Source of the DNA: a virus
Direction: 5' to 3' (one strand)
DNA length: 26,718 bases
Virus record (IMG/VR): IMGVR_UViG_3300025151_000246
Location: 1 to 26,718 of that record
Shown here: piece by piece, positions 6,771 through 22,117 of the stretch
Layout: each line of letters begins with the position of its first letter
Position numbering within the stretch: position 1 is the stretch's first letter
Notes under the pieces: model-generated
The model's input: the letters and a program-made list of their open reading frames with translations, nothing else
Told to the model about the DNA's origin: nothing
The model's database searches: none
Made by a program: the position numbers and the translations under genes

Positions 6771-9260
6771 ATGCCAAATTGGAAAAAACTAATAACTAGC
6801 GGTTCAGACGCTACGTTAAACTCATTGAATGTAACATCCGCACTTACTGCAAGCGGATTAATATACCCTACCACAGACGGGGATAATGGTGATTTTCTAC
6901 TTACGGATGGTGCAGGTAATTTAAGCTTTGCAAGATCAACAGTATTTGCAAATGTAAAAAACGTATCAGGTGGTACACTTCAAAAAGGAACACCAGTACA
7001 TGCTACAGGTACAGCAGGAAATGCTTCTGAAATTATAGCAGCTTCAGCTTCCGTTGCCTCCACAATGCCTGCAACTTATGTACTAAATGAAACTCTGGCT
7101 GATGATGCTGAAGGTTTAGCACTAATTACTGGTTATATAAATGGTGTAGATACGTCTGCTTTTGGAGAAGGCGATATAATATATGTAGGAGAAAGTGGAG
7201 GCTATACTAACGTTAAACCGCAAGGAAGCGGTAATTTAATTCAAAACCTAGGTATAGTAAATAAGGTAGATGGGTCTAATGGTTCAGGATATGTGTATGG
7301 AGCAGGTAGATCAAACGATATACCAAACCTACCAGAAGGAAAAATATGGGTAGGTTCTACAACCTACTCAGTTACTTCATCAATCGTTACTTTAGATGAA
7401 AATAACGACCAGGCACAAATTACAGGTTCTTTAACTGTAACAACTTCTATAACAGGTTCTTCAGCAAAATTAACTTCAGTACCAACAGGTACTTCAGAAA
7501 ATAAAATACTATTAACAGATGCTTCTGGTAATTTAGTTACTAGAACAGATCTATCTCTTCAAGGAACAACCGGATCTCAAGGTGCAACCGGATCTCAAGG
7601 AACTACAGGAAGTCAAGGTACAACAGGTCCACAAGGAGCTACCGGCACACAAGGAACTACAGGAGATACTGGACCTCAAGGGGCAACTGGATCTCAAGGA
7701 ACAACAGGCGCTCAAGGTTCAACTGGTTCGCAAGGGACAGAAGGAGCTCAAGGAATAACAGGTTCTCAAGGAACAACAGGTAGTCAAGGAACTACAGGTT
7801 CTCAAGGAATAACAGGTAGCCAAGGTACAACAGGTACCCAAGGAACTACTGGAGAAACTGGTGCACAAGGTACAACAGGTTCACAAGGTACAACTGGAGC
7901 TCAAGGAGCCGAAGGTAACTTTGGAGGAGCTTCTTTTTCTTATAACTTTAAAACAGCAACAAGTAATGCAGACCCTGGAGCAGGAAACTTAAGATTAGAT
8001 AACACTACTCAAAATTCTGCTACTGGAATTTATATAGACGATCAGGATAACGAAAGCAGTGATATACAGTCTTTTATGCGTACTATAGATGATTCTACAT
8101 CTACGATTAAAGGACATGTTAAAGTATCTAACAAACTAGACCCAGGTCAGTTTATAATATTTACTATTTCTTCTTTAACAGAAAATACAGGTTATTTTGA
8201 TATTACAGTTTCTGCTATAGACTCAAGTGCCACCAGTCCTTTTAGTAATGACGAAGAAATTATAGTCACTTTTGCTAGAACCGGTGACAAAGGGGATACA
8301 GGAAGTCAAGGTACTACTGGTAGCCAAGGAACAACCGGATCTCAAGGTACTACCGGTAGCCAAGGATCAACAGGTTCACAAGGTGCTATTGGTTCACAAG
8401 GAATAACTGGGTCTCAAGGTGCTACCGGATCTCAAGGAACAACTGGCACCCAGGGTACAACAGGAAGTCAAGGCACAACAGGTGCACAAGGGACTACTGG
8501 GGAGACAGGTTCTCAAGGCACAACAGGTGCACAAGGAATTACAGGGACTCAAGGAACAACTGGTAGCCAAGGTACAACAGGGACTCAAGGAATAACTGGA
8601 GCACAAGGAATTACAGGAAGTCAAGGTATAACAGGTAGTCAAGGCTCTACCGGACCTCAAGGAGGTACTGGAAGTCAAGGCACAACAGGTTCTCAAGGAT
8701 CCACTGGTTCTCAAGGTAGTACTGGTCCACAAGGAACAACAGGTTCCCAAGGAACTACAGGAAGTCAAGGCACAACAGGTAGTCAAGGAACTACTGGACC
8801 GCAAGGTACTAATGCTACTACTTCTATTTCTAATAATACAAATAACTTCGTAGTAACCGCTACAGGAGGAGCTACACCATTTAACGGAGAAGCTAATTTG
8901 ACCTTTAACGGTTCAGTTTTAGATATTACCGGTGATGTAACTATAGATGATAGTATTCTAACATATCAGGCAAATACAGACGTAGATACAGGAACTGAAA
9001 CAGTAGCTACAATAACTCATGCAAGTTACGATGGAGCTTTCTTTGATTTTGTAATCAAAAATGGAACAAATTTAAGAGCTGGAACGGTCTATGCAACACA
9101 CGACGGTACTAATGTAGAGTTTACAGAAACATCTACAAATGATTTAGGAGATACTTCTGACGTAACTCTATCAGTTGATATTTCAGGTGCTGATTTAAGA
9201 TTAAGAGCAACAACAACTTCTGATAACTGGACGGTTAAAACCCTGGTTAGAGGATTATAA
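6771..9260 (+). CDS. Collagen-like tail fibre protein (829 aa)
   Basis: Domain order: a WKKL..SGS N-terminus (1-30); a beta-rich region (about 55-200) with VKNVSGGTLQKGTPVHATG and a repeated IIYVGESGG-type fold; a short strand region; collagen-like block 1 (about 265-382, 39 Gly-X-Y triplets); a beta insert (about 381-504) containing ATGIYIDDQDNESSDIQSF and FDITVSAIDSSA; collagen-like block 2 (about 505-680, 58 triplets); and a C-terminal beta head (about 685-829) with FFDFVIKNG and SVDISGADLRLRATTTSDNW. Gly-X-Y blocks in phage fibres form trimeric stalks. Proline is rare and Y alternates Gln and Thr, so stability may come from something other than hydroxyproline. The beta insert is paralogous to one in the 1344-residue fibre. 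The nine-base gap to the next gene suggests one late operon. Confidence 0.85.
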   Translation: MPNWKKLITSGSDATLNSLNVTSALTASGLIYPTTDGDNGDFLLTDGAGNLSFARSTVFANVKNVSGGTLQKGTPVHATGTAGNASEIIAASASVASTMPATYVLNETLADDAEGLALITGYINGVDTSAFGEGDIIYVGESGGYTNVKPQGSGNLIQNLGIVNKVDGSNGSGYVYGAGRSNDIPNLPEGKIWVGSTTYSVTSSIVTLDENNDQAQITGSLTVTTSITGSSAKLTSVPTGTSENKILLTDASGNLVTRTDLSLQGTTGSQGATGSQGTTGSQGTTGPQGATGTQGTTGDTGPQGATGSQGTTGAQGSTGSQGTEGAQGITGSQGTTGSQGTTGSQGITGSQGTTGTQGTTGETGAQGTTGSQGTTGAQGAEGNFGGASFSYNFKTATSNADPGAGNLRLDNTTQNSATGIYIDDQDNESSDIQSFMRTIDDSTSTIKGHVKVSNKLDPGQFIIFTISSLTENTGYFDITVSAIDSSATSPFSNDEEIIVTFARTGDKGDTGSQGTTGSQGTTGSQGTTGSQGSTGSQGAIGSQGITGSQGATGSQGTTGTQGTTGSQGTTGAQGTTGETGSQGTTGAQGITGTQGTTGSQGTTGTQGITGAQGITGSQGITGSQGSTGPQGGTGSQGTTGSQGSTGSQGSTGPQGTTGSQGTTGSQGTTGSQGTTGPQGTNATTSISNNTNNFVVTATGGATPFNGEANLTFNGSVLDITGDVTIDDSILTYQANTDVDTGTETVATITHASYDGAFFDFVIKNGTNLRAGTVYATHDGTNVEFTETSTNDLGDTSDVTLSVDISGADLRLRATTTSDNWTVKTLVRGL
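7563..7917 (+). repeat. Collagen-like Gly-X-Y coding repeat, block 1 of 829-aa fibre
   Basis: About 39 uninterrupted triplets. The dominant unit is 18 bases long (GGn-TCT/AGT-CAA-GGn-ACA-ACn), coding GSQGTT. Synonymous third positions vary from unit to unit, so the repeat is stricter in protein than in DNA. Confidence 0.9.
8283..8814 (+). repeat. Collagen-like Gly-X-Y coding repeat, block 2 of 829-aa fibre
   Basis: About 58 triplets starting GDKGDTGSQ and ending GPQGTN, with the same 18-base period as block 1. Codon choice differs between adjacent units. Confidence 0.9.
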
Positions 9261-9268
9261 TATAAAAA

Positions 9269-9970
9269 ATGGCGTTTTCAAGAGGACCTAGCATAGCAAC
9301 AGACGGATTAGTGCTTGCCTTAGATGCGGCAAATCATAAGTCGTATCCTGGGTCTGGAACTACTTGGTATGATTTGTCTGGGAATGGCAATAATGGTACT
9401 TTGACTAATGGTCCAACTTTTAGCACCGATGGAATAGGTAGCTTTTTCTTTGATCAAACTAATGATAAAGTAGAGATTGACAAAAATGGTGCTGAACTAG
9501 GAATAGCAGATACAGCTATTAGCGGTGAGTTGATTATTAAAAAAGATTCTGGTTTTCCTTCTAATAATCTTCAAGGGCATATGGGATTTGGAGGTTCTGG
9601 TGAAGGTTTAAGTATTAAAAATACTAGTCCTAGGTATTTTTTAGATGGATATAATGCATCAGATACCCGTGTGACTACTGATTTCCACTCTACAACATTT
9701 GCAAACACGTACCAATACACTTGGCTAATTTTATGTTTTACTTTTGCAGGAGAAACCTTAAAAACCTATACAAACGGTGAATATTACACTACTGGTACTT
9801 TTACAGGTGGAATACAGACTATTCAAGACAAGGATTTCAATGTAGCTTCAGGATTTGGATATTATAGAACATATGGTAACATAGCCTCAACCAAGTTATA
9901 TAATAGAGAATTATCAGCCGAAGAAGTCGCCCAAAATTATAACGCACAAAAATCAAGATTTGGATTATAA
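9269..9970 (+). CDS. LamG/concanavalin-like adhesin module, copy 1
   Basis: This 233-residue protein has a LamG-like (concanavalin A-like jelly-roll) plan common in phage tail adhesins. It shows the family N-terminus GPSIATDGLVLALDAAN, then SYPGSGTTWYDLSGNGNNG, central strands (IGSFFFDQTNDKVEIDKNG; LILCFTFAGETLKTYTNGE) and the family C-terminus LYNRELSAEEVAQNYNA ending KSRFGL. The fold in this family usually binds sugars or other surface ligands; the ligand here is unknown. Six copies occur in this window, and this one shares a nearly identical DNA stretch with copy 3. It lies nine bases after the collagen-like fibre and three bases before copy 2. Confidence 0.8.
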   Translation: MAFSRGPSIATDGLVLALDAANHKSYPGSGTTWYDLSGNGNNGTLTNGPTFSTDGIGSFFFDQTNDKVEIDKNGAELGIADTAISGELIIKKDSGFPSNNLQGHMGFGGSGEGLSIKNTSPRYFLDGYNASDTRVTTDFHSTTFANTYQYTWLILCFTFAGETLKTYTNGEYYTTGTFTGGIQTIQDKDFNVASGFGYYRTYGNIASTKLYNRELSAEEVAQNYNAQKSRFGL

Positions 9971-9973
9971 AAT

Positions 9974-10732
9974 ATGTTTACAGGACCTAACATAGTAGAT
10001 AGTGACTCAATTATTATAGCAACCGATAGATACAACCCAAAGTATAGATCGGATAGCCACAATGCTCTAAATATAATTGGGAAAAATAGAAGTAAGACAA
10101 GAGTAAATAACTCTTCTTTTTCAGTTCCGGATTTAAACGCAACTGATGCTAATAATACCCAAAAATTATCTTTAGCCTGCTGGGTAGAAATAAACGCATA
10201 CAATACAGGATATGCATGGCACCCGGTAAATAAATGGAATAGTGGATCTACAAATTCTGCTACAATAGTTTTGTATGCTTTTCAAGATTATAGAGAAGGA
10301 GGAGGAGGAACAGTAGGGGATGGATTGGGTAATAATGATTACGGTAATTACGGATTTTACTACCACAGGTACAATAGCGGAGGATGGACAGGTATTACTT
10401 CGGGAACATCTACTGCATTACTAGGAGGGTCAGAAAATAGAACTAACTTTCCTAGAAAAAACTTTTTTGTATTTACATACGATGTAACTTTAAATAATGC
10501 ACAACCTATCTTTTATATTAACGGAGAATACCGAAGCCAAGGTAATAGTGCTCCAAATGGTATTGGTAATTATGAATACACTCAAGGAAACCTCCACTTC
10601 TGGAATAACTACCCAAACGATTCTAGTGAAAATATAAACGGAGTTACTTGGCTTCAAATTTACGATAAAATGATTACAGCTGAAGAAGTATCTAAATTAT
10701 ACAATCACACAAAACTCAAACACGGCTATTAA
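9974..10732 (+). CDS. LamG-like adhesin module, copy 2 (divergent)
   Basis: This 252-residue protein keeps the family ends in weakened form: FTGPNIVDSDSIIIATDRYN at the N-terminus and YDKMITAEEVSKLYNH...KHGY at the C-terminus. The LDAAN..SYPGSGTTWYDL signature is lost. The middle has typical jelly-roll strands (LSLACWVEINAY; FFVFTYDVTLNNAQPIFYINGEY) and a glycine- and tyrosine-rich loop around residues 105-135. Its stop overlaps the start of the 42-residue ORF (TAATG). A virion adhesin role is inferred from the family. Confidence 0.7.
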   Translation: MFTGPNIVDSDSIIIATDRYNPKYRSDSHNALNIIGKNRSKTRVNNSSFSVPDLNATDANNTQKLSLACWVEINAYNTGYAWHPVNKWNSGSTNSATIVLYAFQDYREGGGGTVGDGLGNNDYGNYGFYYHRYNSGGWTGITSGTSTALLGGSENRTNFPRKNFFVFTYDVTLNNAQPIFYINGEYRSQGNSAPNGIGNYEYTQGNLHFWNNYPNDSSENINGVTWLQIYDKMITAEEVSKLYNHTKLKHGY

Positions 10733-10860
10733 TGACTATAAGAGAAAATGATTCGACTAGAACAGATATACCTCCATTTGAAGTATTAGGTGAAAATGAA
10801 TATGTTGTAGCGTATTTTATGACATATGATGAATGTCAAGAATTTATAAATAATCTATAA
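10732..10860 (+). CDS. Small 42-residue protein coupled between two adhesin genes
   Basis: A 43-codon frame starts at the ATG of a TAATG junction with the upstream adhesin and ends in TAA, whose last base is the first base of the ATG of the next adhesin. Coupling at both ends in an otherwise gapless operon is good evidence that it is translated. The product starts MTIRENDSTRTDIPPFEVLG and ends YDECQEFINNL; it is acidic, with one predicted C-terminal helix. I do not recognise it. It may be a small adhesin-associated or chaperone-like protein, as short genes often accompany phage fibre genes. Confidence 0.6.
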   Translation: MTIRENDSTRTDIPPFEVLGENEYVVAYFMTYDECQEFINNL

Positions 10861-11498
10861 TGGCAACAACAGGAGGAGCAAATATAGTAACAGACGGATT
10901 AGTATTAAATCTAGATGCGGCAAATCATAAGTCATATCCTGGTTCTGGAACTACTTGGCATGATTTATCTGGACAAGAAGCTCATGCTGAAGCTGTTAAT
11001 ATGCCAACATGGAATTCAAGTGGATATTTTGAATTTGATGGCACAAATGATGAACTTCATAGTGTAGATATGACCCAAGAATACAGGGATTTATTTTTTG
11101 TATGTGAAACAGATAAAAGTTCAGGCCTCCATATGTTATTTGGAAAACATAATGACCAAGATGATTCTTTAAGATTTGAAGGAAATTCTTTAAGAACTAC
11201 AGCAAATATAGACGCTAATGACTGGCAATACAACTCAGTATCTGATGTCTTTATCAATGGACAAGCAGATGCTTTAGCTGGTGGAAACTATGATATGAGT
11301 GTAAAAATGAATTTTGTTAGAACTTATAGAAGTAATAACTCTGGGTTTGGTACTTCATTTAGGTATGAAATATCTACTTCTTTCTTGAGTAGAAGATTCA
11401 CAGGTAAATTAGCATTAATACTCTGTTATAATAGAAAATTAACAGATACTGAAGTTCTCCAAAACTATAACGCTCTAAAAGAACGATTTAGTTTATAA
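10860..11498 (+). CDS. LamG/concanavalin-like adhesin module, copy 3
   Basis: This 212-residue protein has the family N-terminus GGANIVTDGLVLNLDAAN with SYPGSGTTWHDLSG, the strand YFEFDGTNDELHSVDM and the family C-terminus CYNRKLTDTEVLQNYNA...ERFSL. It is the closest relative of copy 1 in the N-terminal region even at the DNA level, although the central strands are unrelated by eye. It is coupled by TAATG to the 42-residue ORF. It ends the first adhesin series; the next promoter begins six bases after its stop. Ligand unknown. Confidence 0.8.
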   Translation: MATTGGANIVTDGLVLNLDAANHKSYPGSGTTWHDLSGQEAHAEAVNMPTWNSSGYFEFDGTNDELHSVDMTQEYRDLFFVCETDKSSGLHMLFGKHNDQDDSLRFEGNSLRTTANIDANDWQYNSVSDVFINGQADALAGGNYDMSVKMNFVRTYRSNNSGFGTSFRYEISTSFLSRRFTGKLALILCYNRKLTDTEVLQNYNALKERFSL

Positions 11499-11503
11499 GT
11501 ACA

Positions 11504-11515
11504 TATTTATAATAG
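11504..11515 (+). promoter_or_regulatory. T4-late-like promoter upstream of the 1344-aa fibre
   Basis: TATTTATAATAG sits between the copy-3 stop and the ATG at 11548. The start also has AAAAAGGATAAAATT upstream, one of the few purine-rich, Shine-Dalgarno-like leaders in the window. Confidence 0.55.
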
Positions 11516-11547
11516 ACCCTTTTGGAAAATGAAAAAAGGATAAAATT

Positions 11548-14500
11548 ATGGCCAACGAATTTAAAATTAAAAAAGGCCTGATCGTCAATGGATCAGGTTC
11601 TACTATACTAGATATACAAGGATCACAAGGTCAGCTATTCTCAGTGACCGATTCACTCTCTGGTTCCTTATTTGCAGTAAACGATATTTCAGGTATTCCT
11701 ATTTTAAAAGTATTCTCTGATGATACAGTTAATATGGGTACCTTTGGAGCAGAAGCCATAATAGCCTCAGGGTCAGACGTAAAATTACCAAATGTACCAG
11801 CCGGTTCAAGCGAAACTAAAATATTATTAGCTGACTCAGACGGTAAGGTAGTAACTAGAACAGATTTATCTCTTCAAGGAGCTACAGGTACCCAAGGGGC
11901 AACAGGTCCGCAAGGAGGTACTGGAAGTCAAGGTACTAACGGTACCCAAGGTACAACAGGTCCGCAAGGAGGTACTGGGAGTCAAGGAACGACAGGATCC
12001 CAAGGTACTACTGGTACGCAAGGTATAACAGGAACTCAAGGTACAAATGGTACACAAGGAATAACAGGACCTCAAGGAGGCACTGGAAGTCAAGGAACAA
12101 CAGGTAGCCAAGGTGTAACCGGAACTCAAGGTATAACAGGAACTCAAGGTACTAACGGAACTCAAGGCTCAACAGGTCCTCAAGGAGGAACAGGAAGTCA
12201 AGGAGGTACCGGAAGTCAAGGGACAACTGGTACTCAAGGTATAACTGGTACTCAAGGAACTAATGGTACTCAAGGTACAAACGGTACTCAAGGAACTACT
12301 GGTCCTCAAGGAGGAACAGGTAGCCAAGGTGCAACCGGGTCTCAAGGAGGAACAGGAAGTCAAGGTGCAACCGGGTCTCAAGGTATAACTGGTACTCAAG
12401 GTACAAACGGTACTCAAGGAACAACAGGCCCTCAAGGAACAAATGGTACTCAAGGTACAACAGGGTTACAAGGTACAACAGGTGCACCAGGCACTCAAGG
12501 AACTACTGGAGAAACCGGTGCCCAAGGAACAACTGGAAATGATGGTAACTTTGGAGGAGCTTCTTTTTCATACAATTTTGATACATCAGTAACTAATTCA
12601 GATCCAGGTTCGGGTGACTTACGGTTAGATAATCCTACTCAAAATGGAGCAACTGGAATTTATATAGATGATCAAGATAGTGAAGGTACGGATATTCAAT
12701 CTTTCATGAGAACGATTGATGATTCTACTTCAACAATAAAAGGTCATGTTAAAATATCTAATAAATTTGATGCTAGTCAATTCATAATATTTACAATATC
12801 TTCATTAGTAGAAAATTCAGGTTATTTTGATATAACTGTTTCTGCAATAGATTCAAGTGCATCAAGCCCATTTTCTAATGGTGAAGAAATAATAGTTACC
12901 TTTGCTAGAACAGGTGATAAAGGGGATACAGGTTCTCAAGGTTCAACTGGACCTCAAGGAGGTACTGGAAGTCAAGGTACTAATGGTACCCAAGGTACAA
13001 ATGGTACTCAAGGTACTAACGGAACTCAAGGAACTAATGGTACTCAAGGAACTACAGGTCCTCAAGGAGCAACAGGAAGTCAAGGTACAAACGGTACTCA
13101 AGGTACTAATGGTACCCAAGGTACAAATGGTACACAAGGTACTAATGGTACTCAAGGAACTACAGGAGACGACGGACCGCAAGGTACAACAGGTTCACAA
13201 GGAACAACCGGTTCCCAAGGTATTACCGGTACGCAAGGTATTACCGGTACGCAAGGTACAAACGGTACCCAAGGTTCAACAGGTCCTCAAGGAGGAACAG
13301 GAAGTCAAGGTACAACTGGAAGTCAAGGTGTAACCGGAACTCAAGGTGTAACCGGAACCCAAGGAACTAATGGTACGCAAGGTACTAATGGAACCCAAGG
13401 AACAACTGGACCTCAAGGAGGTACTGGAAGTCAAGGAACAACCGGTACTCAAGGGATAACTGGTACTCAAGGTACTAATGGAACCCAAGGAACAACCGGT
13501 ACTCAAGGTACTAATGGAACCCAAGGAACAACAGGTCCTCAAGGTATAACTGGTACTCAAGGTATAACTGGTACTCAAGGTACTACCGGTACCCAAGGTA
13601 CTAATGGTACTCAAGGTACTACCGGTACCCAAGGTACTACCGGAGCTTTAGGTATAACAGGAGATGTAAATAATAGAGTAATAACCGCTGACGGTGATGG
13701 AACAGTAACAGGAGAAGGAAATTTAACTTTCGATGGAGGTACTTTAATGATATCAGGTTCAGGTTCAACTGTAGTAGATGTACAAGGATCCCAAGGTCAA
13801 TTGTTCTCAGTAACAGATGATTTAACAGGTACTTTATTCACCGTTTCAGATATATCAGGTATACCTATTTTATCAGTTTCATCATCTGCTACTACTATTA
13901 TAGACAATAATATTATTATAGGTGAAAATAGCAGTATGGAATGCTTTTCTCCATCAGTAGCGTCCTCTATATTAGGAGGTTCTTCACACTGTATTAAAGA
14001 CGATTATTCTACAATAGCAGGTGGCTGTGATAACTGTATAGAAGGATGTTTAGGTTCAATAGTAGGAGGAAGCGGAAACCATATTTGTCATAGTAACACT
14101 GGTGTATTTATTGGTGGAGGATGTAGTAATAATGCTGGATTCTGCTCTACAATGAATGCAATTGTTGGAGGATGCGGTAATACAGTAAACGGACCACAGG
14201 CAAGCCCTCAACCGGGAAGATACAATATAATTGGAGCAGGAAAAGGTAATAGTAATTCAGGAGGAACCTCTGGTATATTAGCCGGTGACTTTAATTTGAT
14301 TACTAGTGAAGGAACAGGCGGCAGCAACGTTAACTCTTCAGGAAGTTTTATCGGAGCAGGAGCACGAAATATCATAACTGCTGCAGACAATACAGCAATC
14401 GTAGCAGGATGTTTAAACTCATCCTCAGCCGACTATTCGTTTATAGGAGGTGGTGCTAAAAACTCTATTACAAGTAATAGCGGATTCATTGGAGGTGGTT

Positions 14501-15582
14501 GCCTGAACGAAGTAGGACTTTCTACAGGAACAATGGGGGTAATCGTAGGTGGGTTAAGTAACTCTAATGCATCAGCTTATGGGTTTATAGGTGGTGGTAG
14601 AACTAATACAATAGATGCTTATAATACTGATAGCTTGATCGTAGGAGGGTCCGGTAACACAATACATGCAAATGGTTTTAGTTTCGACACTTCTAGGGCT
14701 TCTATAGTTGGAGGTTGCAACAATACAATACAATGTATCTCAGATTGTAGTTTCCTTGGAGGTGGATGCGGTAACACAATAAACTGTAATTCTGTTACTA
14801 GCTTTATAGGAGGTGGATGCGGTAACACAATTGGCGCTACTACCTGTGCAGGAACAGTAGTAGGTGGTATAAGCAATTCCGCATCCGGAGCACAAGCCTT
14901 TATTGGAGGAGGAAGAGCTAATGCTACTAATAGTACGGTCGCAACAATAGTGGGAGGATGTAGCAACACTGTATCAGGTGGATGTAGTTTTATAGGTGGC
15001 GGTTGTGCCAACACAATCTCAGGTCAATGCAGCGGTATACTTGGGGGTGTTAGTAATAGTACACAAACCAAGTCTAATGCATTTATTATAGGTTCAGGAA
15101 TTATTGCACTAGGTTCAAATACAACCTTTGTTAATAATTTAGGATTTTACGGTTCATGTAACCAAAGTGCTTTAACTGGTACTGATAAAACCTCAGGTGA
15201 ATTAATATACACAGGAAATACCTCAGTAACTAAAGGATACCTATACTACTTAACAGAACCTACCTCAGGGAATTCCGGCTGGGCATTAGCTGATGCAGAT
15301 GCAGTATCAACAGGAACGAATATGCTTGCGATAGCTGCAGATACTGGAAATTCTTACGAAGTAGGTATGCTTGTGAGAGGATTTGCTAGATTTGCTTCTC
15401 GGTTTAATCTTACAGGCGGAACTATAGGATCTCCTCTTTATATGTCAACAACTGCAGGAGATATTACTTTAACTGCTCCTTCAGGAACAGGAGATATTGT
15501 AAGAGTAGTAGGACATTTAATAGACGATGCTCTTGAATTAATATACTTTAACCCAGATGGAGCTTGGGTAGAAATAGCATAA
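11548..15582 (+). CDS. Large collagen-like fibre with cysteine-rich beta-helix head (1344 aa)
   Basis: Domain order: N-terminal module (1-110) with GSGSTILDIQGSQGQLFSV and LFAVNDISGIPIL; collagen-like block 1 (about 111-332); beta insert (about 331-455) paralogous to that in the 829-residue fibre; collagen-like block 2 (about 456-705); a second copy of the N-terminal module (about 735-780: GSGSTVVDVQGSQGQLFSV, LFTVSDISGIPIL); a beta-helix-like repeat region (about 795-1180) with units of the form SFIGGGCGNTI; and a C-terminal beta head (about 1200-1344) with KGYLYYLTEPTSGNSGWALA and VRVVGHLIDDALELIYF. I count 22 cysteines in the repeat region, one just after it and none elsewhere. No self-cleaving chaperone motif is seen. 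It is probably a main receptor-binding or long side fibre; the receptor is unknown. Confidence 0.85.
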   Translation: MANEFKIKKGLIVNGSGSTILDIQGSQGQLFSVTDSLSGSLFAVNDISGIPILKVFSDDTVNMGTFGAEAIIASGSDVKLPNVPAGSSETKILLADSDGKVVTRTDLSLQGATGTQGATGPQGGTGSQGTNGTQGTTGPQGGTGSQGTTGSQGTTGTQGITGTQGTNGTQGITGPQGGTGSQGTTGSQGVTGTQGITGTQGTNGTQGSTGPQGGTGSQGGTGSQGTTGTQGITGTQGTNGTQGTNGTQGTTGPQGGTGSQGATGSQGGTGSQGATGSQGITGTQGTNGTQGTTGPQGTNGTQGTTGLQGTTGAPGTQGTTGETGAQGTTGNDGNFGGASFSYNFDTSVTNSDPGSGDLRLDNPTQNGATGIYIDDQDSEGTDIQSFMRTIDDSTSTIKGHVKISNKFDASQFIIFTISSLVENSGYFDITVSAIDSSASSPFSNGEEIIVTFARTGDKGDTGSQGSTGPQGGTGSQGTNGTQGTNGTQGTNGTQGTNGTQGTTGPQGATGSQGTNGTQGTNGTQGTNGTQGTNGTQGTTGDDGPQGTTGSQGTTGSQGITGTQGITGTQGTNGTQGSTGPQGGTGSQGTTGSQGVTGTQGVTGTQGTNGTQGTNGTQGTTGPQGGTGSQGTTGTQGITGTQGTNGTQGTTGTQGTNGTQGTTGPQGITGTQGITGTQGTTGTQGTNGTQGTTGTQGTTGALGITGDVNNRVITADGDGTVTGEGNLTFDGGTLMISGSGSTVVDVQGSQGQLFSVTDDLTGTLFTVSDISGIPILSVSSSATTIIDNNIIIGENSSMECFSPSVASSILGGSSHCIKDDYSTIAGGCDNCIEGCLGSIVGGSGNHICHSNTGVFIGGGCSNNAGFCSTMNAIVGGCGNTVNGPQASPQPGRYNIIGAGKGNSNSGGTSGILAGDFNLITSEGTGGSNVNSSGSFIGAGARNIITAADNTAIVAGCLNSSSADYSFIGGGAKNSITSNSGFIGGGCLNEVGLSTGTMGVIVGGLSNSNASAYGFIGGGRTNTIDAYNTDSLIVGGSGNTIHANGFSFDTSRASIVGGCNNTIQCISDCSFLGGGCGNTINCNSVTSFIGGGCGNTIGATTCAGTVVGGISNSASGAQAFIGGGRANATNSTVATIVGGCSNTVSGGCSFIGGGCANTISGQCSGILGGVSNSTQTKSNAFIIGSGIIALGSNTTFVNNLGFYGSCNQSALTGTDKTSGELIYTGNTSVTKGYLYYLTEPTSGNSGWALADADAVSTGTNMLAIAADTGNSYEVGMLVRGFARFASRFNLTGGTIGSPLYMSTTAGDITLTAPSGTGDIVRVVGHLIDDALELIYFNPDGAWVEIA
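11878..12543 (+). repeat. Collagen-like Gly-X-Y coding repeat, block 1 of 1344-aa fibre
   Basis: About 74 triplets mixing GPQGGTGSQ, GTQGIT and GTNGTQ units. The alternation of Gln and Thr (or Asn and Gln) in Y continues through the block. Confidence 0.9.
12913..13665 (+). repeat. Collagen-like Gly-X-Y coding repeat, block 2 of 1344-aa fibre
   Basis: About 83 triplets, with long runs of GTNGTQ (12980-13060 and 13080-13160) and GTTGTQ. This is the most DNA-repetitive stretch in the window and is likely to be prone to assembly collapse and to recombination with block 1. Confidence 0.9.
13930..15090 (+). repeat. Coding repeat for cysteine-rich beta-helix-like units
   Basis: About twenty units of roughly 14-20 codons, each with a core like (I/V)-(V/I/G)-GG-(C/G/S)-x-N-(T/S)-(I/V). 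The GGC codon context (GGAGGATGC/GGTGGATGC GGTAACACAATA) repeats nearly exactly at 14758-14772 and 14810-14832. The pattern resembles a right-handed beta-helix or YadA-head-like coil, but no exact family is recognised. Confidence 0.75.
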
Positions 15583-15591: not shown

Positions 15592-16272
15592 ATGGCTACA
15601 AAAAAAGATTTCGAATACGACTCAGGATTTAAAGAGAGAACTCTTAGTTTTGAAAAGGATAAAATAGTTTTTTCTAAAGATGGAGAAACTTATCAGGTAA
15701 TGATGAATTGGGAAAGGCCAATCATGAAAAGATCGGCTGAATGGGTTACTAACGGAGGAAAAGCAGAAAGCGTATTAGAGATAGGTTACGGCATGGGTAT
15801 AGCAGCATCATTTATTCAAGCATACCAACCAGACCAACATACAATAATGGAATTACATCCAAATATAGTAGAACGAGCAGAAGGATATGCTACCCAAAGA
15901 AATAAGTATTATAGTAGTTCCAAAGCAACAGCTCATAAAAGAGTAACTATATTGGGAGGTAAAGACTGGTATACTGAATTTCAAAAAGAATTTGGCAAAT
16001 CAGGACTACAACAATTTGATGCTATTTTCATAGATACTTATAATGATAATAATTTATATAAGTTAAAAGAGTATATTACTAAAATGCTTAAAGAAGGAGG
16101 TAGAATGACTTGGTGGAACCCCATGGAGGATAGACTACCAGACCCTGATATAAGAAAAGCAAGAAAAATAGAGTATGAAATTATTAAGATGAGCGACCAT
16201 AAAATTACAATCCCTACTAATAATTACCACAATACAAATGTATATTACATGCCAATGTATATAAGACAGTAA
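15592..16272 (+). CDS. SAM-dependent methyltransferase, GAMT/RMT2-like
   Basis: This 226-residue protein matches the plan of the guanidinoacetate N-methyltransferase / arginine N-methyltransferase 2 group. It has the MMNWERPIM segment (37-45; GAMT has VMERWETPYM), SAM-binding motif I VLEIGYGMGIAASFIQ (61-76), an acidic motif HTIMELHPNIVERA (83-96), and DAIFIDTYND (143-152), which matches the GAMT DGILYDTYP segment. MLKEGGRMTWWNP follows as the usual post-core strand. These enzymes methylate guanidino or arginine nitrogens. The substrate here is unknown: it could be virion protein, host protein or a small guanidino compound. The C-terminal 50 residues differ from GAMT. It lies nine bases after the large fibre in the same unit, suggesting a link to fibres. 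The fold is confident, the subfamily fairly so, the substrate not. Confidence 0.75.
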   Translation: MATKKDFEYDSGFKERTLSFEKDKIVFSKDGETYQVMMNWERPIMKRSAEWVTNGGKAESVLEIGYGMGIAASFIQAYQPDQHTIMELHPNIVERAEGYATQRNKYYSSSKATAHKRVTILGGKDWYTEFQKEFGKSGLQQFDAIFIDTYNDNNLYKLKEYITKMLKEGGRMTWWNPMEDRLPDPDIRKARKIEYEIIKMSDHKITIPTNNYHNTNVYYMPMYIRQ

Positions 16273-16276: not shown

Positions 16277-16978
16277 ATGCCAACAATTCCTACATCTAGG
16301 CAAAGCGATGTTGCCACTCTAGTAAATCAGCTTGATTCTACAGGATATACCTGGGCTGATACCAGAAATGCTGCAACTGCAACAGGCCCAAGCTCCTTAA
16401 TACCACAGACGACAGCCGCTAGAGCTTATAAAATAACAGGTGGTAGAGGAAACTACTGGGTTATTCAAAGACCAGCATTCGGATTCGACTTTTCAGGAGT
16501 TTCTGGGACTATTACCTCTATGACTTTAGGGTTATACAAAGGCACCACCGCATCAATTATGTCTAATATAATTGTAGTAAAAAATTCAAATACATGGTCA
16601 ACTGCTCCTGCAAATGATGATTATGATGTAGACCTTAGCACACCATATTCTAGTGCTTTTACTTTAAATTCATCAGGTGGATTAGGTGATCTTAAATCTG
16701 TGACTCTTAATTCAACAGCAATGTCAGATGCTGTAGGGAATAGTGACTTTAATATATCAGTTGTTGATAAAAATAACGATTATGATAACGTAGCTCCAAC
16801 AGGAATAACTTTAGGACAGTCTACATTTTATTTATATGATGTAAATTACTATCCAAGAATAGAGTATACTGCAGTAACGGGGTATGGGAATACTGTAGCA
16901 GGTGTAGTATCTGCTAATATAGGAAAAGTAACAGGTGTAGCTACGGCAAATGTTGATAAAGTAATAGGAGTACAGTAA
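16277..16978 (+). CDS. Beta-rich virion protein with C-terminal repeat
   Basis: This 233-residue protein starts four bases after the methyltransferase. Its core (about 30-200) has jelly-roll-like strands: YWVIQRPAFGFDFSGVSGTI, SMTLGLYKGTT and FNISVVDKNNDYD. The C-terminus has a short repeat, VAGVVSANIGKVTGVATANVDKVIGV, in which I.KV.GV units recur. Such tails occur on phage structural proteins and may anchor them. It is probably a minor fibre or adhesin with a carbohydrate-binding-like fold; no catalytic motif is seen. The late unit ends here, and a host-type promoter begins at the stop codon. Confidence 0.7.
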   Translation: MPTIPTSRQSDVATLVNQLDSTGYTWADTRNAATATGPSSLIPQTTAARAYKITGGRGNYWVIQRPAFGFDFSGVSGTITSMTLGLYKGTTASIMSNIIVVKNSNTWSTAPANDDYDVDLSTPYSSAFTLNSSGGLGDLKSVTLNSTAMSDAVGNSDFNISVVDKNNDYDNVAPTGITLGQSTFYLYDVNYYPRIEYTAVTGYGNTVAGVVSANIGKVTGVATANVDKVIGVQ

Positions 16979-17031: not shown

Positions 17032-18261
17032 ATGAAAAATAAAATTAGTTGTACTATTGTATCTATTATTATAGGTAGAGAGTTTTCTATAGATAAACTC
17101 CTAGACTATTTCTGTAATTTAAATAAACCTAATCAAATAAATCAGCTTAATTTAAACTTAGTTATAGGATGTGGTAATAATTTTACAAAACAGCTTAAAA
17201 ATAAAATTAAAGAATTAAAACTATCTGACAAATATGATAAAATATCTTTTATAGAAGGTAATAGAAGGTGTCATCCTGATTTAAACTGGGAAGAATGGGA
17301 ACAATATACTCGCAAAAAAGACATGCTTGTTAAACATGATTCTGCATTACAAAATATTAATATAGGATTACAATCAGTTAAAGAAGGAGGTTTTATTCAT
17401 TTTGTAGATGACGATACTATTCCCCCTTATTTTGCTTTACAAGATTTATACAATGCTTATAATAAAATAGAAAATTGCGGGATAGCAAGCGGAATTTACT
17501 TTAATAAAGAATGGTTAGGACCAACAGTAGTTACAGAAAAATACGAAACAAAAAGACGCATAGTAGCAAGTATAAGAAAAGATAAGTGGATAGAAACATC
17601 TATAGATGATCTTACAATCATAGATTATACTGATATAGGCTTTGTAGGAAACGGATGTATGCTTATCTCAGTTAAGGACATAGAAGAAGTTTTACCTTTG
17701 ACTGAAAATAGAGACTACTTTGATACTGATGCTCCTCCAGATTCTAAAATATGCCATAGAGTAAGACTATTAGGAAAAAAGATTAGTATAGTTCCGTCTA
17801 TAGTATGTAAACACTTAGATGATAAAGGAGAACCAGTAGGTCTATCTGAACATTACTTAGAAAAAATAAAGTATTCTAAAACTGCTAAAAAAATACTTTT
17901 TAGCAATTTTGATTCTAATATAGATTATAATAAGTTAACCTTAAGTTACGACAAAATTGTTATCTTAATATACGAAGAAACCATAAGAAATAAATATAAG
18001 AATAAACTAAAATACTTAGAACAAAATAAAGATATTAAATTAGTAAATAAAAGTATAAAACAAGTTGTAAGTCATTATGAACTAGATTTCAAAATTCAAC
18101 ATAATTTACTTAATTTACTAACTTTACAAGAGATGTACTTATATATCAGTGATAAAAGTGAATATAAAGTATATGCTCACAGATCTCAAGAAAATGATAT
18201 AAACTTAGTAGCTACATTAGATAGTTCTAACTTAAAAAATTTACTAAATACAAAATTATAA
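17032..18261 (+). CDS. Glycosyltransferase-like protein, GT-A fold
   Basis: This 409-residue protein looks like a GT-A (family 2-like) glycosyltransferase. The N-terminal strand KISCTIVSIIIGREFSIDKL is followed by a nucleotide-binding-like half. A FVDDDTIPP motif at 124-132 supplies the DxD (D126-D128) that binds metal and nucleotide sugar. GIASGIYFNK and FVGNGCMLIS are the usual acceptor-side strands. An acidic-then-PPDSKICHRVR segment with SIVCKHLDD (His) completes the catalytic half. About 130 C-terminal residues are Lys/Asn/Ile-rich and helical, with no recognised domain. No membrane segment or signal peptide is seen, so it acts in the cytoplasm. It is the first gene of a unit with a host-type promoter. 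Acceptors could be fibre Thr/Ser or host glycans; this is not shown. Confidence 0.75.
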   Translation: MKNKISCTIVSIIIGREFSIDKLLDYFCNLNKPNQINQLNLNLVIGCGNNFTKQLKNKIKELKLSDKYDKISFIEGNRRCHPDLNWEEWEQYTRKKDMLVKHDSALQNINIGLQSVKEGGFIHFVDDDTIPPYFALQDLYNAYNKIENCGIASGIYFNKEWLGPTVVTEKYETKRRIVASIRKDKWIETSIDDLTIIDYTDIGFVGNGCMLISVKDIEEVLPLTENRDYFDTDAPPDSKICHRVRLLGKKISIVPSIVCKHLDDKGEPVGLSEHYLEKIKYSKTAKKILFSNFDSNIDYNKLTLSYDKIVILIYEETIRNKYKNKLKYLEQNKDIKLVNKSIKQVVSHYELDFKIQHNLLNLLTLQEMYLYISDKSEYKVYAHRSQENDINLVATLDSSNLKNLLNTKL

Positions 18262-18519
18262 ATGATATCAAATAACAGAGAATTAACCGATGAGGAACTA
18301 AATATAGGTTCTTCACTACATAACAAGAGAATAGAATACTTAATTCAATTAGGAGAAATTAAGCTTTCAGAATTGGAAAATGAGAGAAGATTGGAAGAAG
18401 TATATACTAATATAGTAGAATTAAATACAAAAGAAAACTTATTTAAACAAGATATGTTTTCTAAATACGGTGAAGGACAGGTAGATTTAATAAATAAAAT
18501 ATATGTTAGAAACGTTTAA
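18262..18519 (+). CDS. Small coiled-coil protein, paralogue of 24509-24796
   Basis: This 85-residue protein starts directly after the glycosyltransferase stop. It is two helices with heptad-like spacing (EELNIGSSLHNKRIEYLIQ; ELENERRLEEVYTNIVELN) and ends FSKYGEGQVDLINKIYV. The helical plan and the tail align with the 95-residue protein at 24509 (ELTDEEL with KLSKEEL; KYGEGQVDL with KYGQGSIDL). Two-helix coiled coils of this size recall prefoldin-like or gp57A-like fibre chaperones, but no sequence identity to those is claimed. Its last 17 bases overlap the start of the dioxygenase gene. Confidence 0.75.
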   Translation: MISNNRELTDEELNIGSSLHNKRIEYLIQLGEIKLSELENERRLEEVYTNIVELNTKENLFKQDMFSKYGEGQVDLINKIYVRNV

Positions 18520-19168
18520 ATCAAAAGGGTTTATTCATCTACGTTCTGTATTAGATAAAGATCTTTTAAAATATACAAGAGACCTTGCTGTAGAGATGAA
18601 GTATAAGTATGCTTCATCTGTAGGGCAGTTAAGAGAATGGGGGACTGGTGTGTTTTGGTCAGGGTACGAAATGGCAAGTAAGCTAGATAAGAGGCTATAC
18701 GATTCCTATACTAGTCCTCTAATGTATGAACTATCTTCTTTACTATTAGAAACTGAACAACCATACTTATTTAATGATCAAGTAGTAGTTAAACTACCGG
18801 GAGAAGGCTTTGCTTTTGAAGCACATTACGATAATCAATACGGCCCTGACCCAGACGCTGCTTCTGAAGGAAAATATAAAACAGTAAATATATCTTGGAT
18901 ATTAGATGATATGCCATCTGAAACTGGACCTCTTATTTGTAGAAATAATCAAACAGGTGAATATGAAGAGTTAGTTGCAAAAGCAGGAGATGTAGTAGCT
19001 ATAGAAGGAAATACTTTACATGGATCTAATTTAAATATATCTAATAATATAAGAGGATTATATGCTTGTGTATACTCAACTCATCCAATAGGAGATTTTC
19101 ATAATAACACTAATTACCCATATCCACATTTTAAAGGTTTTTACAATGAAAAATTCCCTAAGATTTAA
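18503..19168 (+). CDS. 2-oxoglutarate/Fe(II) dioxygenase, PhyH-like
   Basis: This 221-residue protein has the double-stranded beta-helix iron site: HxD at H108 and D110 (EAHYDNQYG), distal His at H173 (NTLHGSN), and R184 eleven residues later (NNIRGLYA), which would bind 2-oxoglutarate. The overall plan, with an N-terminal FKSKGFIHLRSVLDKDLLKY helix-strand, matches the phytanoyl-CoA dioxygenase family, whose phage and bacterial members hydroxylate varied small molecules or side chains. The substrate is unknown. It overlaps its neighbours by 17 and 23 bases, which suggests tight coupled expression with the coiled-coil and methyltransferase genes. Its active-site residues look intact. Confidence 0.8.
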   Translation: MLETFKSKGFIHLRSVLDKDLLKYTRDLAVEMKYKYASSVGQLREWGTGVFWSGYEMASKLDKRLYDSYTSPLMYELSSLLLETEQPYLFNDQVVVKLPGEGFAFEAHYDNQYGPDPDAASEGKYKTVNISWILDDMPSETGPLICRNNQTGEYEELVAKAGDVVAIEGNTLHGSNLNISNNIRGLYACVYSTHPIGDFHNNTNYPYPHFKGFYNEKFPKI

Positions 19169-19718
19169 CCCACCTGAAAAGTGGAACCTAATGACCTCAG
19201 GTAACCGGTATTATATAGGGCTTAATTTACTTATAATTGATGTTCTTAATACCCTCAGTAATAAAACTAATTTGAAAATGTTGGAAATTGGTTCTTATAA
19301 AGGAGAATCTACTTTAATGTTTGCTTCATCTGGTATATTTGATGAAATACATTGTATAGATCCTCATCAAGGAAATGAAGAAGCAAATGACATATTTAAT
19401 GATAGCTGGCAAGAAATACAAAAAGAATTCAAATTAAATACAAGATATTTTGATAATATAATCTTACATCAAGATTATAGCTATAATATAGTTGATAAAT
19501 TTGAAGATGGTTATTTTGATTTCATTTATATAGATGGTTCTCATGAATATAAAGATGTAAGAAAAGACTTAGAGCTATATCTTCCTAAAACAAATCATCT
19601 CATAGGAGGACATGATTACCAAAAAGAATGGCCCGGAGTAATTAAGGCAGTAGAAGAAGTAATAGGAACACCGCATAAAACCTATATAGATGAAAGCTGG
19701 GCTTACTCTATAATTTAA
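19146..19718 (+). CDS. Class I SAM methyltransferase (TylF/CmcI-like)
   Basis: This 190-residue protein has motif I MLEIGSYKGESTLMFA (45-60), an acidic loop IHCIDPHQGNEE, and DFIYIDGSHEYKDVRKDLEL (125-144). The last motif is typical of the Methyltransf_24 / TylF-CmcI group that methylates sugar or small-molecule hydroxyls using a metal. LIGGHDY follows, with WPGVIKAVEEV as the usual C-terminal helix. It starts inside the 3' end of the dioxygenase gene. Its placement after a glycosyltransferase suggests sugar O-methylation; this is inferred. It is the last gene of enzyme unit 1; a late-type promoter follows. Confidence 0.8.
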   Translation: MKNSLRFNPPEKWNLMTSGNRYYIGLNLLIIDVLNTLSNKTNLKMLEIGSYKGESTLMFASSGIFDEIHCIDPHQGNEEANDIFNDSWQEIQKEFKLNTRYFDNIILHQDYSYNIVDKFEDGYFDFIYIDGSHEYKDVRKDLELYLPKTNHLIGGHDYQKEWPGVIKAVEEVIGTPHKTYIDESWAYSII

Positions 19719-19752: not shown

Positions 19753-20376
19753 ATGGGATTTCACAGAGGACCAAATATTGTTAGAGATGGATTAGTATTG
19801 TTATTAGATGCAGCATCATCAAGATCCTATCCCGGTAGTGGAACTACATGGTATGATTTGAGTGGAAATAATTTCGATTTTACATTAGATGGAAGTGGAA
19901 TAACTTATGACCAATCTGGGGCTGCACCCAATTTTTCATTAGCAGACGGAGGAGCTTCCTACTCAGGTACAATTACATCTAATACAAACTGCACTCTAGT
20001 ATTTTGGATTAAATCAAACGATATACAGGCATTATTTTGGCAAGGACAAAGCGGTAGTTACTATTTAGGTGCATTTAGATCCGGTAATAAAGAATATCAC
20101 TCTAATTTTGGAACACCCGATTATTATCAGAATACTGTAGAAAAATCAAATATTTACGATAATTTAAGAAACGGGCAGTTTAATATGGTTGAATTTAAAA
20201 ATGTTAATATGTCTTCTGTTACTGCTAATCATTTTAATCAATATGGTAGCTATACGTTTGGAACAGGTAACATAGCAGCAATTTACATGTATAATAGAAA
20301 CTTAACTAGCGATGAATCTACTCAAAACTATAATGCGTTAAAATCTAGATTTGTAAGAGATTCTGCAGAACCATAA
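19753..20376 (+). CDS. LamG/concanavalin-like adhesin module, copy 4
   Basis: This 207-residue protein has the full N-terminal family signature GFHRGPNIVRDGLVLLLDAA with SYPGSGTTWYDLSGNN, and the C-terminal MYNRNLTSDESTQNYNA...SRFVRDSAEP. The central strand TNCTLVFWIKSNDIQALFWQ is characteristic of these jelly-rolls. It is a divergent sibling of copies 1 and 3. The first gene of the second adhesin series, it has a late-type promoter just upstream, whereas the enzyme gene before it belongs to a host-type unit. An AAAAGAAG stretch before the ATG is the only possible ribosome-binding sequence. Confidence 0.8.
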   Translation: MGFHRGPNIVRDGLVLLLDAASSRSYPGSGTTWYDLSGNNFDFTLDGSGITYDQSGAAPNFSLADGGASYSGTITSNTNCTLVFWIKSNDIQALFWQGQSGSYYLGAFRSGNKEYHSNFGTPDYYQNTVEKSNIYDNLRNGQFNMVEFKNVNMSSVTANHFNQYGSYTFGTGNIAAIYMYNRNLTSDESTQNYNALKSRFVRDSAEP

Positions 20377-20388
20377 AAATAGTAAATT

Positions 20389-20721
20389 ATGTTTGAAAAC
20401 AGAAGATGGTTGGTCATACCAACAAGCCTAACAAGCTCGATTGATTTTAATCAAGTATTAGAATCATCAATAGATACTTTACGTCTATCTATAGACGGTA
20501 CACAGACCTTTGTTAAATACGAAGTAAATGAGATAACAGCATCATATGAAGAATACTATGAAGATGTTGATAACCCAGGTTCGTTTTTAACTTCGTCGAT
20601 AGAAGCAGGAGTATATGGAAGACCTTCAATCTACGATACCCAGTACGTAGAGTATAATCATTCAGATATTTTAGAATTGCTTTCTGGAGAAGAATGGGTA
20701 ATACAAGATGAATTAGCGTAA
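20389..20721 (+). CDS. Small unknown protein, possibly widespread in marine phages
   Basis: This 110-residue protein begins with strand-like RRWLVIPTSLTSSIDFNQVL and continues SSIDTLRLSIDGTQTFVKYE. From memory, this "WLVIP..SIDF..V...S.DTLR.S.DGT.TF.KY" pattern recurs in small proteins of marine T4-like phages next to fibre genes; I cannot confirm this here. It ends with an acidic helix (LELLSGEEWVIQDELA). It has no transmembrane segment. It joins copy 4 and copy 5 of the adhesin series; its stop overlaps the next start (TAATG). Function unknown. Confidence 0.75.
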   Translation: MFENRRWLVIPTSLTSSIDFNQVLESSIDTLRLSIDGTQTFVKYEVNEITASYEEYYEDVDNPGSFLTSSIEAGVYGRPSIYDTQYVEYNHSDILELLSGEEWVIQDELA

Positions 20722-21425
20722 TGTATACAGGGCCGGATATAGTAAGAAAAGGATTAATAAATAGCTGGAATCTAGCTTCAAATAGAAGTTATACTTCTGG
20801 TACAACTATTTACGATTTAGTAGGAACTGCTAATCTAACAGTTTATGGCTCACCAACATATAGCGATGAACAAATAAACGACGGGTATGGATTTATTACC
20901 ATGACCGATAACCAAATAACTAAGTACCTACAAGTAAGCAGTTTTTCATTTCCAACTACTGCTGTTTCAATAGAAATATGGTGTAGAACTGCAGATGCAA
21001 CTCAAAACCAGTCTTTAATAAGTTATGCTGTATCTGGGGATTCTAACGAGTCCTTACTTTTTTATGCAGGTTCCAGTTCTCAAAAAATGAATATATTTGG
21101 ACCTGTAGGAAGTCATTCATCCTATCAAGCCCTTACAGAAGATGCTTGGACTCAAGTTACATATACTAGACTAAGCTCATCAGGACTTACTAAACTATAC
21201 TACAACGGAGCACAAGTTAGATCAACTACTATGGCGGCCGGTACTAATTTTACTTCTGGCGGTACTTTAAATTTTGGACAGGAACAAGACTCAGAAGGAG
21301 GAGGATTTGACAGTAGCCAATGCTGGATTGGCGATTATTCTATTATAAGAATATATAATAGAGTTTTAGAATTAGAAGAAGTGCAGTTAAACTATAATGC
21401 ACATAAAAATAGATTTGGAATATAA
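20721..21425 (+). CDS. LamG-like adhesin module, copy 5
   Basis: This 234-residue protein begins YTGPDIVRKGLINSWNLASN with RSYTSGTTIYDLVG, a variant of the family N-terminus, and ends IYNRVLELEEVQLNYNA...NRFGI. The core strand AVSIEIWCRTADATQNQSL is a typical LamG strand, with TKLYYNGAQVRSTTM near residue 160. It is coupled to the genes on both sides by TAATG. The ligand is unknown. Confidence 0.8.
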   Translation: MYTGPDIVRKGLINSWNLASNRSYTSGTTIYDLVGTANLTVYGSPTYSDEQINDGYGFITMTDNQITKYLQVSSFSFPTTAVSIEIWCRTADATQNQSLISYAVSGDSNESLLFYAGSSSQKMNIFGPVGSHSSYQALTEDAWTQVTYTRLSSSGLTKLYYNGAQVRSTTMAAGTNFTSGGTLNFGQEQDSEGGGFDSSQCWIGDYSIIRIYNRVLELEEVQLNYNAHKNRFGI

Positions 21426-22117
21426 TGGCAACAGCTGGAGGACCTAAAATAACAAAAGATGGATTAGTATTAGCTCTAGATGCTACAAGCACAAGATCTT
21501 GGACTCCAGGAGCGTCTACTTGGTATGATTTAACAGATAATGGAAATAATGCAACAGTTTCTGGTGCTCCTTCTACAGATGACACAAGCACTCCTATTCG
21601 TAGTATTGCTTTTGATGGTACAAATGATTATTTTACAGTTACTGCAAATGAAACATCTCTCAGTTTTAAAGGAGGTCAAACAGTATGTGTACTTGCTTAC
21701 CATACATTTACTTCAGGTAGAAGAGTAATATGGGATCAAGCATATGGCGGATACGGAACTTGGACTCATGAATCTGGAAACAGTATAAATTATTACCACG
21801 GTTCAAACGGTGGAAATGCATCATCATATGTAAGTAGAAATTCAAGTACAACAACTAGAAGTAGTTGGAATTATTTAGTTTGTTCAAGAGATACTTCTAA
21901 TGTAAAGTGGTATATAAACGGATCATTGACTTCCCAAGGTACTGCTCCTTATGGAACCTTAACAAATACTACAACTAATGATATAAGAATAGGATTAGGC
22001 TATACAGGAACCTATTGGATAGGTAATATGGTATTTGTTCATGCATATAATAGAGGACTTACAGCCGATGAGATATCGCAGAACTATAATGCTATGAAAG
22101 GCAGGTTTGGAGGTTAG
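21425..22117 (+). CDS. LamG/concanavalin-like adhesin module, copy 6
   Basis: This 230-residue protein has the N-terminus GGPKITKDGLVLALDATS with TPGASTWYDLTDNGNN, strands IAFDGTNDYFTVTAN and YLVCSRDTSNVKWYINGS, and the C-terminus AYNRGLTADEISQNYNA...RFGG. It closely follows copies 1, 3 and 4 in plan. It ends the second adhesin series; the -33 box of the next promoter lies inside its last codons. No catalytic motif is visible. Confidence 0.8.
   Translation: MATAGGPKITKDGLVLALDATSTRSWTPGASTWYDLTDNGNNATVSGAPSTDDTSTPIRSIAFDGTNDYFTVTANETSLSFKGGQTVCVLAYHTFTSGRRVIWDQAYGGYGTWTHESGNSINYYHGSNGGNASSYVSRNSSTTTRSSWNYLVCSRDTSNVKWYINGSLTSQGTAPYGTLTNTTTNDIRIGLGYTGTYWIGNMVFVHAYNRGLTADEISQNYNAMKGRFGG

Follow-up and report, generated by a model that had tools for sequence, protein, structure and literature searches.

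A glycosyltransferase and a putative collagen-modification cassette beside collagen-like fibre genes of a T4-like phage

The window analysed here, a 26.7 kb virus fragment from an aquatic T4-like phage (IMG/VR record IMGVR_UViG_3300025151_000246, positions 1–26,718), encodes two fibre proteins with long collagen-like blocks and, 3′ of the second, a predicted glycosyltransferase (GT; 17032–18261). Relatives of this GT accompany fibres with Gly-X-Y triplet stalks far more often than do fibre loci of a background set, and, having compared hundreds of loci from related phages, we consider it probable (about 0.6) that the window GT modifies the fibre, as one member of a modular, fibre-linked collagen-modification cassette. 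The gene order of the window is T4-like (gp23 C-terminus, PhoH, neck, fibre region and then tail sheath), some of the genes being named by eye and from a cultured relative; the nearest such relative is Flavobacterium phage immuto (sheath 57%). The second fibre gene is followed by a methyltransferase-like gene (from 15592), a fibre-associated gene (from 16277), the GT gene, a coiled-coil-like open reading frame (ORF), a PhyH oxygenase gene and a Methyltransf_24 gene (MT24). Further 3′ come LamG-domain proteins, a gene that we call GHlike and a TPR-methyltransferase gene (TPR-MT). The fibre genes, their collagen-like blocks and the genes of the cassette are all on the plus strand.

Collagen-like stalks of the two fibre proteins

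Fibre protein 1 (829 aa; 6771–9260) matches PF01391 with E = 2.2e-43 and PHROG tail fibre families, and fibre protein 2 (1344 aa; 11548–15582) matches PF01391 with E = 1.1e-60 and a PHROG tail fibre family. Both exceed the curated Pfam cut-off for PF01391 and place a glycine at every third residue over long runs. Each contains two collagen-like blocks, of 41 triplets (block 1, 7563–7931, with Gln and Thr alternating at Y), 59 triplets (block 2, 8283–8813), 76 triplets (block 3, 11878–12561, with Gln alternating with Thr/Asn) and 84 triplets (block 4, 12913–13668). The four low-proline blocks of the original prediction, which counted about 255 triplets, are therefore real, summing to 260 uninterrupted Gly-X-Y triplets with 18 prolines; lysine is nearly absent. 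The blocks may form a triple helix.

An alternation of Gln and Thr at Y had also been claimed. Neighbouring Y residues are Gln/Thr pairs in 33/40, 53/58, 55/75 and 49/83 cases in blocks 1–4, respectively, and in none of the blocks were the observed values reached in any of 2000 shuffles. The remaining pairs are mostly Gln/Asn, and Gln-Gln pairs never occur. The alternation is thus far beyond chance, although in blocks 3 and 4 it is partly one of Gln with Asn. A tandem unit of 18 bases underlies the pattern. Most of these units differ from one another in their DNA, and in blocks 1 and 2 all of them do (20/20 and 29/29), yet the peptide pattern is preserved. It is therefore not a recent expansion and has been retained while the DNA drifted.

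All 22 Asn residues at Y in the window lie within N-x-T sequons, the next residues being Gly-Thr and, in one case, Ala-Thr. In the second fibre (11878–13668), all 21 Y-position Asn residues are followed by Gly-Thr and form N-G-T sequons, as do 19/19 in locus L002 (IMG/VR loci are designated L001 and so on) but only 0/33 in L182. The two collagen-like blocks of each fibre are linked by a conserved domain, NFGGASFSYNF...TFARTGDKGDTG (7932–8282 and 12562–12912), which is also present in other phages, for example Pelagibacter phage HTVC010P. Fibre protein 2 also contains YadA-like head repeats, recognized by eye, and a C-terminal domain common to many phage fibres, which is present in 382 IMG/VR stretches.

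The glycosyltransferase and its co-occurrence with stalks

The GT, which carries the motif HFVDDDTIPP, matched no Pfam, PHROG or NCBIfam family and gave no sequence match to any glycosyltransferase in the PDB; its assignment comes from its predicted fold and its relatives. The DDD motif is invariant among 13 GT relatives, and a model built from 13 sequences (pLDDT 72.5) adopts a GT-A fold in which a strand ends at the DDD. This model replaced a first one, discarded because of its pLDDT of 54.7 and the lack of a Foldseek match below 1e-3. The best Foldseek match of the retained model is chondroitin polymerase (E = 7e-11), and the matches also include the Chlorella virus hyaluronan synthase as well as human LH3/ColGalT1 and COLGALT1 at about 1e-8 to 3e-8. 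The earlier suggestion that the DDD gene encodes a glycosyltransferase is thus supported by the model, which predicts a GT-A enzyme; the fold likeness is not specific to collagen. Indeed, the window GT cannot be counted among the GT25 procollagen galactosyltransferases, which it resembles in fold only, with no sequence match. The GT gene was originally placed 3.4 kb past the last collagen block, which is correct for its start; measured from where the second fibre gene ends, the distance is 1.45 kb, occupied by two genes, the methyltransferase-like gene and the fibre-associated gene.

A repeat scan seeded with close relatives yielded no more than the four loci already known, and a broader alignment extended the GT family to 17 IMG/VR loci, including L272 as a remote match (25%). 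No relative was found among 50,697 phage records or in genome contigs. A fibre sequence lies just 5′ of the GT in every locus with a readable 5′ side except L267, where only an 80-aa fragment and one ORF are visible. The GT directly follows the fibre gene in L046, L257, L258, the L259 group and L263, is preceded by genes of the 15592 and 16277 types in the window and in L001–L004, and is separated from the fibre by one small ORF in L266 and by 15592- and 16277-type genes, small genes and an oxygenase in L189. The coiled-coil-like ORF comes 3′ of the GT in every full-length GT locus and in all loci with readable gene order, L267 included.

Gly-triplet stalks are present at nine of the ten GT loci in which the fibre stalk can be read. 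They are of the GTQ/GTT type in the window and L002, GPT/GPP in L001, GSS/GTS in L003 and L004, GAT/GVQ-like with hydrophobic X residues in L046 and L258, GVT/GAT in L259 and GSS with GTP in L189. Thr and Ser together make up 40–97% of the Y residues in each of these nine stalks, whereas the X residues are wholly variable (T, S, P or A/V/I/L). We considered the Gln/Thr super-period as a target signature of the GT and discarded it: stalks of the GSSGTS, GPTGPT and GATGVQ types are also found with the GT, so the super-period is not needed.

The co-occurrence of the GT with Thr-rich collagen fibres, proposed as a test along with the original prediction, was borne out. The background consisted of 50 non-redundant fibre loci found through an unrelated shared C-terminal domain, a stalk being defined as 30 or more triplets. 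Stalks were present in 11/50 of these loci, compared with 9/10 at GT loci (Fisher p = 9e-5). Moreover, a modifier gene detectable by BLAST (GT, PF13640 oxygenase, GHlike, TPR-MT, or a GT9- or GT4-type gene) accompanied 9/11 stalked and 0/39 unstalked fibres in the same 50 loci (p = 2e-8); L254, in which the fibre is cut off with 12 triplets visible and the GT is on the other strand, was scored on its main strand as lacking a modifier. A non-exhaustive Pfam search of ten unannotated neighbours of unstalked fibres returned no GT or 2-oxoglutarate (2OG) oxygenase family. None of 36 mostly unstalked records, searched in full, contained a window-type GT; GT4 genes were present in five, four of them far from the fibre (in L237 the GT4 gene lies upstream of the fibre in the same 23 kb contig), and there was one distant PF13640 gene.

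Comparison with the phage backbone points the same way. The gp23 fragment of L022 is 95% identical to that of the window, yet L022 has neither stalk nor cassette. On the other hand, the L002 sheath is 52% identical overall, yet L002 has both, its GT, PhyH and MT24 being 80, 95 and 88% identical, respectively, to those of the window. Stalk and cassette thus come and go together against the backbone by horizontal exchange, which partly answers the concern that the association reflects shared descent.

Oxygenases, fusion enzymes and other genes of the cassette

The original prediction overlooked a PhyH-type 2OG-Fe(II) oxygenase (18503–19168), which combines a family match (PF05721, E = 2e-12) with the conserved metal/2OG residues HxD...H...R (H108-x-D110, H173 and R184). 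Together with the coiled-coil-like ORF, this gene intervenes between the GT and the methyltransferase that was said to follow it. The latter (19146–19718) was described as TylF-like; its family is Methyltransf_24 (PF13578, E = 5.6e-16), and it does not qualify as TylF. The PhyH and MT24 genes overlap by about 20 bases, and MT24 accompanies PhyH (in the window, L001, L002 and L009) rather than strictly the GT. That PhyH acts as a prolyl hydroxylase in the window was considered; such a role is unlikely to be general, because the stalk of L002, whose PhyH is 95% identical, has no proline. Related copies of PhyH (71% identical to the window gene) and of MT24 (68%) also occur in L009 and L010, where a non-collagen, Thr/Ser-rich 'TTTTFNTS' repeat (L009, 3–1229; L010, 3–857) is followed by a GT25-containing protein and then by these two genes.

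Another oxygenase family of these cassettes, the PF13640/PKHD type (alignment A9), has invariant ligands, matches PKHD hydroxylases in the PDB (E = 6e-8) and numbers about 80 relatives beside collagen-like stalks (for example L182, 11733–12326, and L186, 5077–5670). Collagen-like ORFs with at least 15 triplets are present at 31/34 non-redundant PF13640 loci, compared with 5/31 sheath-anchored loci without the enzyme; L308, scored as stalkless, is the same contig as L001, in which interruptions keep the GPT/GPP stalk below the run-length filter. Proline occurs in all 30 scorable stalks with a PF13640 oxygenase (0.04 to 0.73 per triplet), compared with 4/14 stalks without one (p = 4e-7; rank test p = 3e-5), absence of the enzyme having been checked in whole records, many of which are fragments. 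Within the Ser-rich GSS/GTS class, a grouping of our own, proline is found in 9/9 stalks with the oxygenase and 0/7 without. The four proline-bearing stalks lacking a PF13640 enzyme are those of the window (7% Pro, with PhyH instead), L199, L259 and L156. With intact ligands and proline in the adjoining stalk, the stalk-linked PF13640 enzymes are candidate collagen prolyl hydroxylases. In addition, a third oxygenase of L001 matches anthrax P4H (E = 1e-6), and cyanophage 2OG oxygenases are matched at 30–37% identity.

In their fibre regions, some relatives encode a fusion of a GT4 domain, a procollagen-galactosyltransferase-like GT25 domain and a lysyl-hydroxylase-like 2OG domain (L174, 694–3069; L344, 7599–9986; L351, 7637–9997; L350, 252–2612; L338, 359–2851). 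The best PDB matches of the L174 fusion are human LH3 (3e-24), Mimivirus L230 (2e-20) and ColGalT1 (3e-11), and the HxD, H and R ligands are conserved in its alignment with LH3, establishing homology to procollagen lysyl hydroxylase. A collagen-like ORF lies directly 5′ of the fusion gene in L174, L344 and L350.

The GHlike protein (22158–23201) has no family and resembles a glycoside-hydrolase propeller by eye; in relatives its gene comes after the stalk-linked oxygenase. Its partner (23173–24462) is a TPR and methyltransferase-like protein. The methyltransferase-like protein at 15592–16272 weakly matches the O-methyltransferase and polyamine aminopropyltransferase families. This gene and that of the fibre-associated protein (16277–16978) were dropped from the modification set, as both also accompany unstalked fibres; occurring with and without stalks, they provide internal negative controls.

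Proposed modification and alternative explanations

The two fibre proteins of this T4-like phage have collagen-like shafts, the stalks. We infer that the fibre is the substrate of the cassette, as well as the residue that accepts the sugar, the sugar donated, the sequence of steps and the advantage gained. The GT would most likely add a sugar to hydroxyl side chains of the Gly-triplet stalk in the cytoplasm of the infected cell, before or during trimerisation. Glycosylation of the window stalk is likely; threonine at Y is the best acceptor candidate, and that it is the main one we propose tentatively, at slightly less than even odds. PhyH and MT24, as well as GHlike and TPR-MT, may further change the residue or the glycan; going by gene order alone, MT24 might methylate the sugar. 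The cassette would be modular across phages and would track stalk chemistry, with PKHD-type oxygenases accompanying proline-bearing stalks and lysyl-hydroxylase/procollagen-galactosyltransferase-like fusions present in some phages. The modification could favour stalk stability or hydration, or masking.

The closest known arrangement is that of Clostridioides difficile, in which SgtA, encoded beside bclA3, transfers GlcNAc onto Thr, and Ser, of collagen-repeat peptides (PMC7157674). The window likewise has a GT gene near a fibre gene with a Thr-rich collagen-like repeat, with two small genes between, and by analogy a BclA-type O-linked sugar may be carried on the Thr of its GXT triplets. It differs in that the fibre belongs to a virion rather than a spore surface and in its extra oxygenase and methyltransferases. 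In giant viruses and animals, collagen modification combines hydroxylases with GTs (PMC9546862, PMC8968730). The window resembles Mimivirus L230 and animal LH3/ColGalT1 in that the virus encodes a collagen together with a hydroxylase and a glycosyltransferase of its own. The L174 fusion and its relatives (L338, L344, L350, L351) are homologous in sequence to LH3, L230 and ColGalT1, whereas the window GT is similar to them in fold only, its substrate would be a phage fibre in a bacterial host, and stalk lysine is scarce. The phage stalk-linked oxygenases match PKHD-type hydroxylases (PiuC, YbiX), and the third oxygenase of L001 matches Bacillus anthracis P4H, although the phage stalk-linked subfamily is distinct and adjoins proline-bearing stalks, and the window has a PhyH-type enzyme instead. 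Mycobacteriophages of the Che8/Corndog type encode GTs for which glycosylation of virion proteins has been proposed or demonstrated; there the targets are capsid and tail proteins rather than collagen stalks, and hydroxylases are not known in those systems.

Several observations weigh against a stalk-directed role. L266 pairs the GT with a non-collagen fibre, and the stalk region lies outside the visible sequence in L257, L263 and L267. Conversely, stalked fibres occur without a cassette in the contig in L127 (Y = Gln/Ile), L199, L210 and L156 (short). In bacterial collagens, Thr at Y often comes without known glycosylation. GT4/GT9-type genes are weakly tied to stalks at sheath-anchored loci (5/7 vs 9/37, p = 0.025); we rejected the broader rule that all fibre-region GTs follow stalks, since GTs are also present in those 9/37 unstalked loci. 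Because the loci are related by descent, all p-values are optimistic and overstate independence. Thr is a frequent Y residue of bacterial collagens (mean 31.6%; PMC8968730), and, as fibre genes and cargo share a hypervariable region, some of the linkage could be a by-product.

The last point bears on a rather unlikely alternative, namely that the host envelope (O-chain or LPS) is what the GT and its neighbours act on, so as to block superinfection, their proximity to the fibre genes reflecting a shared hypervariable region for host recognition. This is the published reading of the host recognition cluster glycosyltransferases of pelagimyophages (PMC7029224), and it suits the generic GT4/GT9 genes found where no stalk is seen (L043, L053, L073, L075, L099, L101, L103, L115, L171). 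However, the window-type GT accompanies fibres and, at nine of ten loci, Gly-triplet stalks, while the corresponding region of unstalked relatives has no modifier detectable by BLAST; nor would LPS enzymes be expected together with homologues of collagen hydroxylase and galactosyltransferase, or to track stalk proline. We regard as improbable that the cassette modifies the fibre elsewhere than at stalk Thr, either in another fibre domain or at stalk Asn. The non-collagen fibre of L266, the sequon context of all 22 Y-position Asn residues and the PhyH/MT24 genes beside the Thr/Ser-rich repeat of L009 would fit such a role, but Asn is not a common Y residue in other GT-bearing stalks (L001, L046, L258, L259), and the GT fits no known GT family, N-glycosyltransferases included. 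Finally, ordinary collagen-like fibres could stand beside unrelated metabolic cargo: such fibres are common in phages, in bacteria Thr at Y is the rule (PMC8968730) and the cargo region is a known hypervariable one (PMC7029224). Stalks are, however, associated with genes of several unrelated families (GT, oxygenase and LH/ColGalT-like), and we regard the lack of any functional link as very improbable.

More generally, the chances seem evenly balanced that many aquatic T4-like phages carry beside their fibre genes a modular, cytoplasmic collagen-maturation system partly homologous to animal LH3/ColGalT1, in which hydroxylases fit stalk proline (perhaps lysine) and GTs fit hydroxyl residues, the window being a Thr-glycosylation version with PhyH. 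It is already known, as separate findings, that phage fibres can be collagen-like, that phage GTs glycosylate virions, that BclA is glycosylated and that viruses hydroxylate collagen. A literature search, with most subscription journals and preprints outside its coverage, found no paper in which collagen-like stalks are linked to phage oxygenases encoded beside the fibre or to LH/ColGalT-like fusions; with such partial coverage this is no proof of novelty. Both 2OG-Fe(II) oxygenases and fibre-region glycosyltransferases occur frequently in phages and lack an explanation. The roles proposed so far are DNA repair, host metabolism or a change of LPS (PMC9146016, PMC7029224), and a Baltic survey noted that the viral use of prolyl 4-hydroxylase 'remains cryptic' (PMC9301287). 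Linking such enzymes to the composition of the adjoining stalk gives them a specific, testable substrate. If the proposed modification is correct, viruses of bacteria add hydroxyl groups and sugars to their own collagen much as animals do, which would bear on how lysyl hydroxylase/galactosyltransferase enzymes arose and might offer a source of enzymes for producing modified collagen in bacteria.

Some further features were observed in the fibre regions. L127 carries a 96-triplet stalk (3–1505) in which Gln and Ile replace Thr at Y (GTIGSQ), and no modification genes were found in its contig. In the window, six small LamG/concanavalin-like proteins form two clusters (9269–11498 and 19753–22117) that flank the second fibre gene and the cassette. 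The 85-aa coiled-coil-like ORF that abuts the GT (18262–18519) is related to a second such ORF located before the sheath gene (24509–24796; 26% identity, E = 3e-7); as a guess, the pair might act as fibre-assembly chaperones like T4 gp57A.

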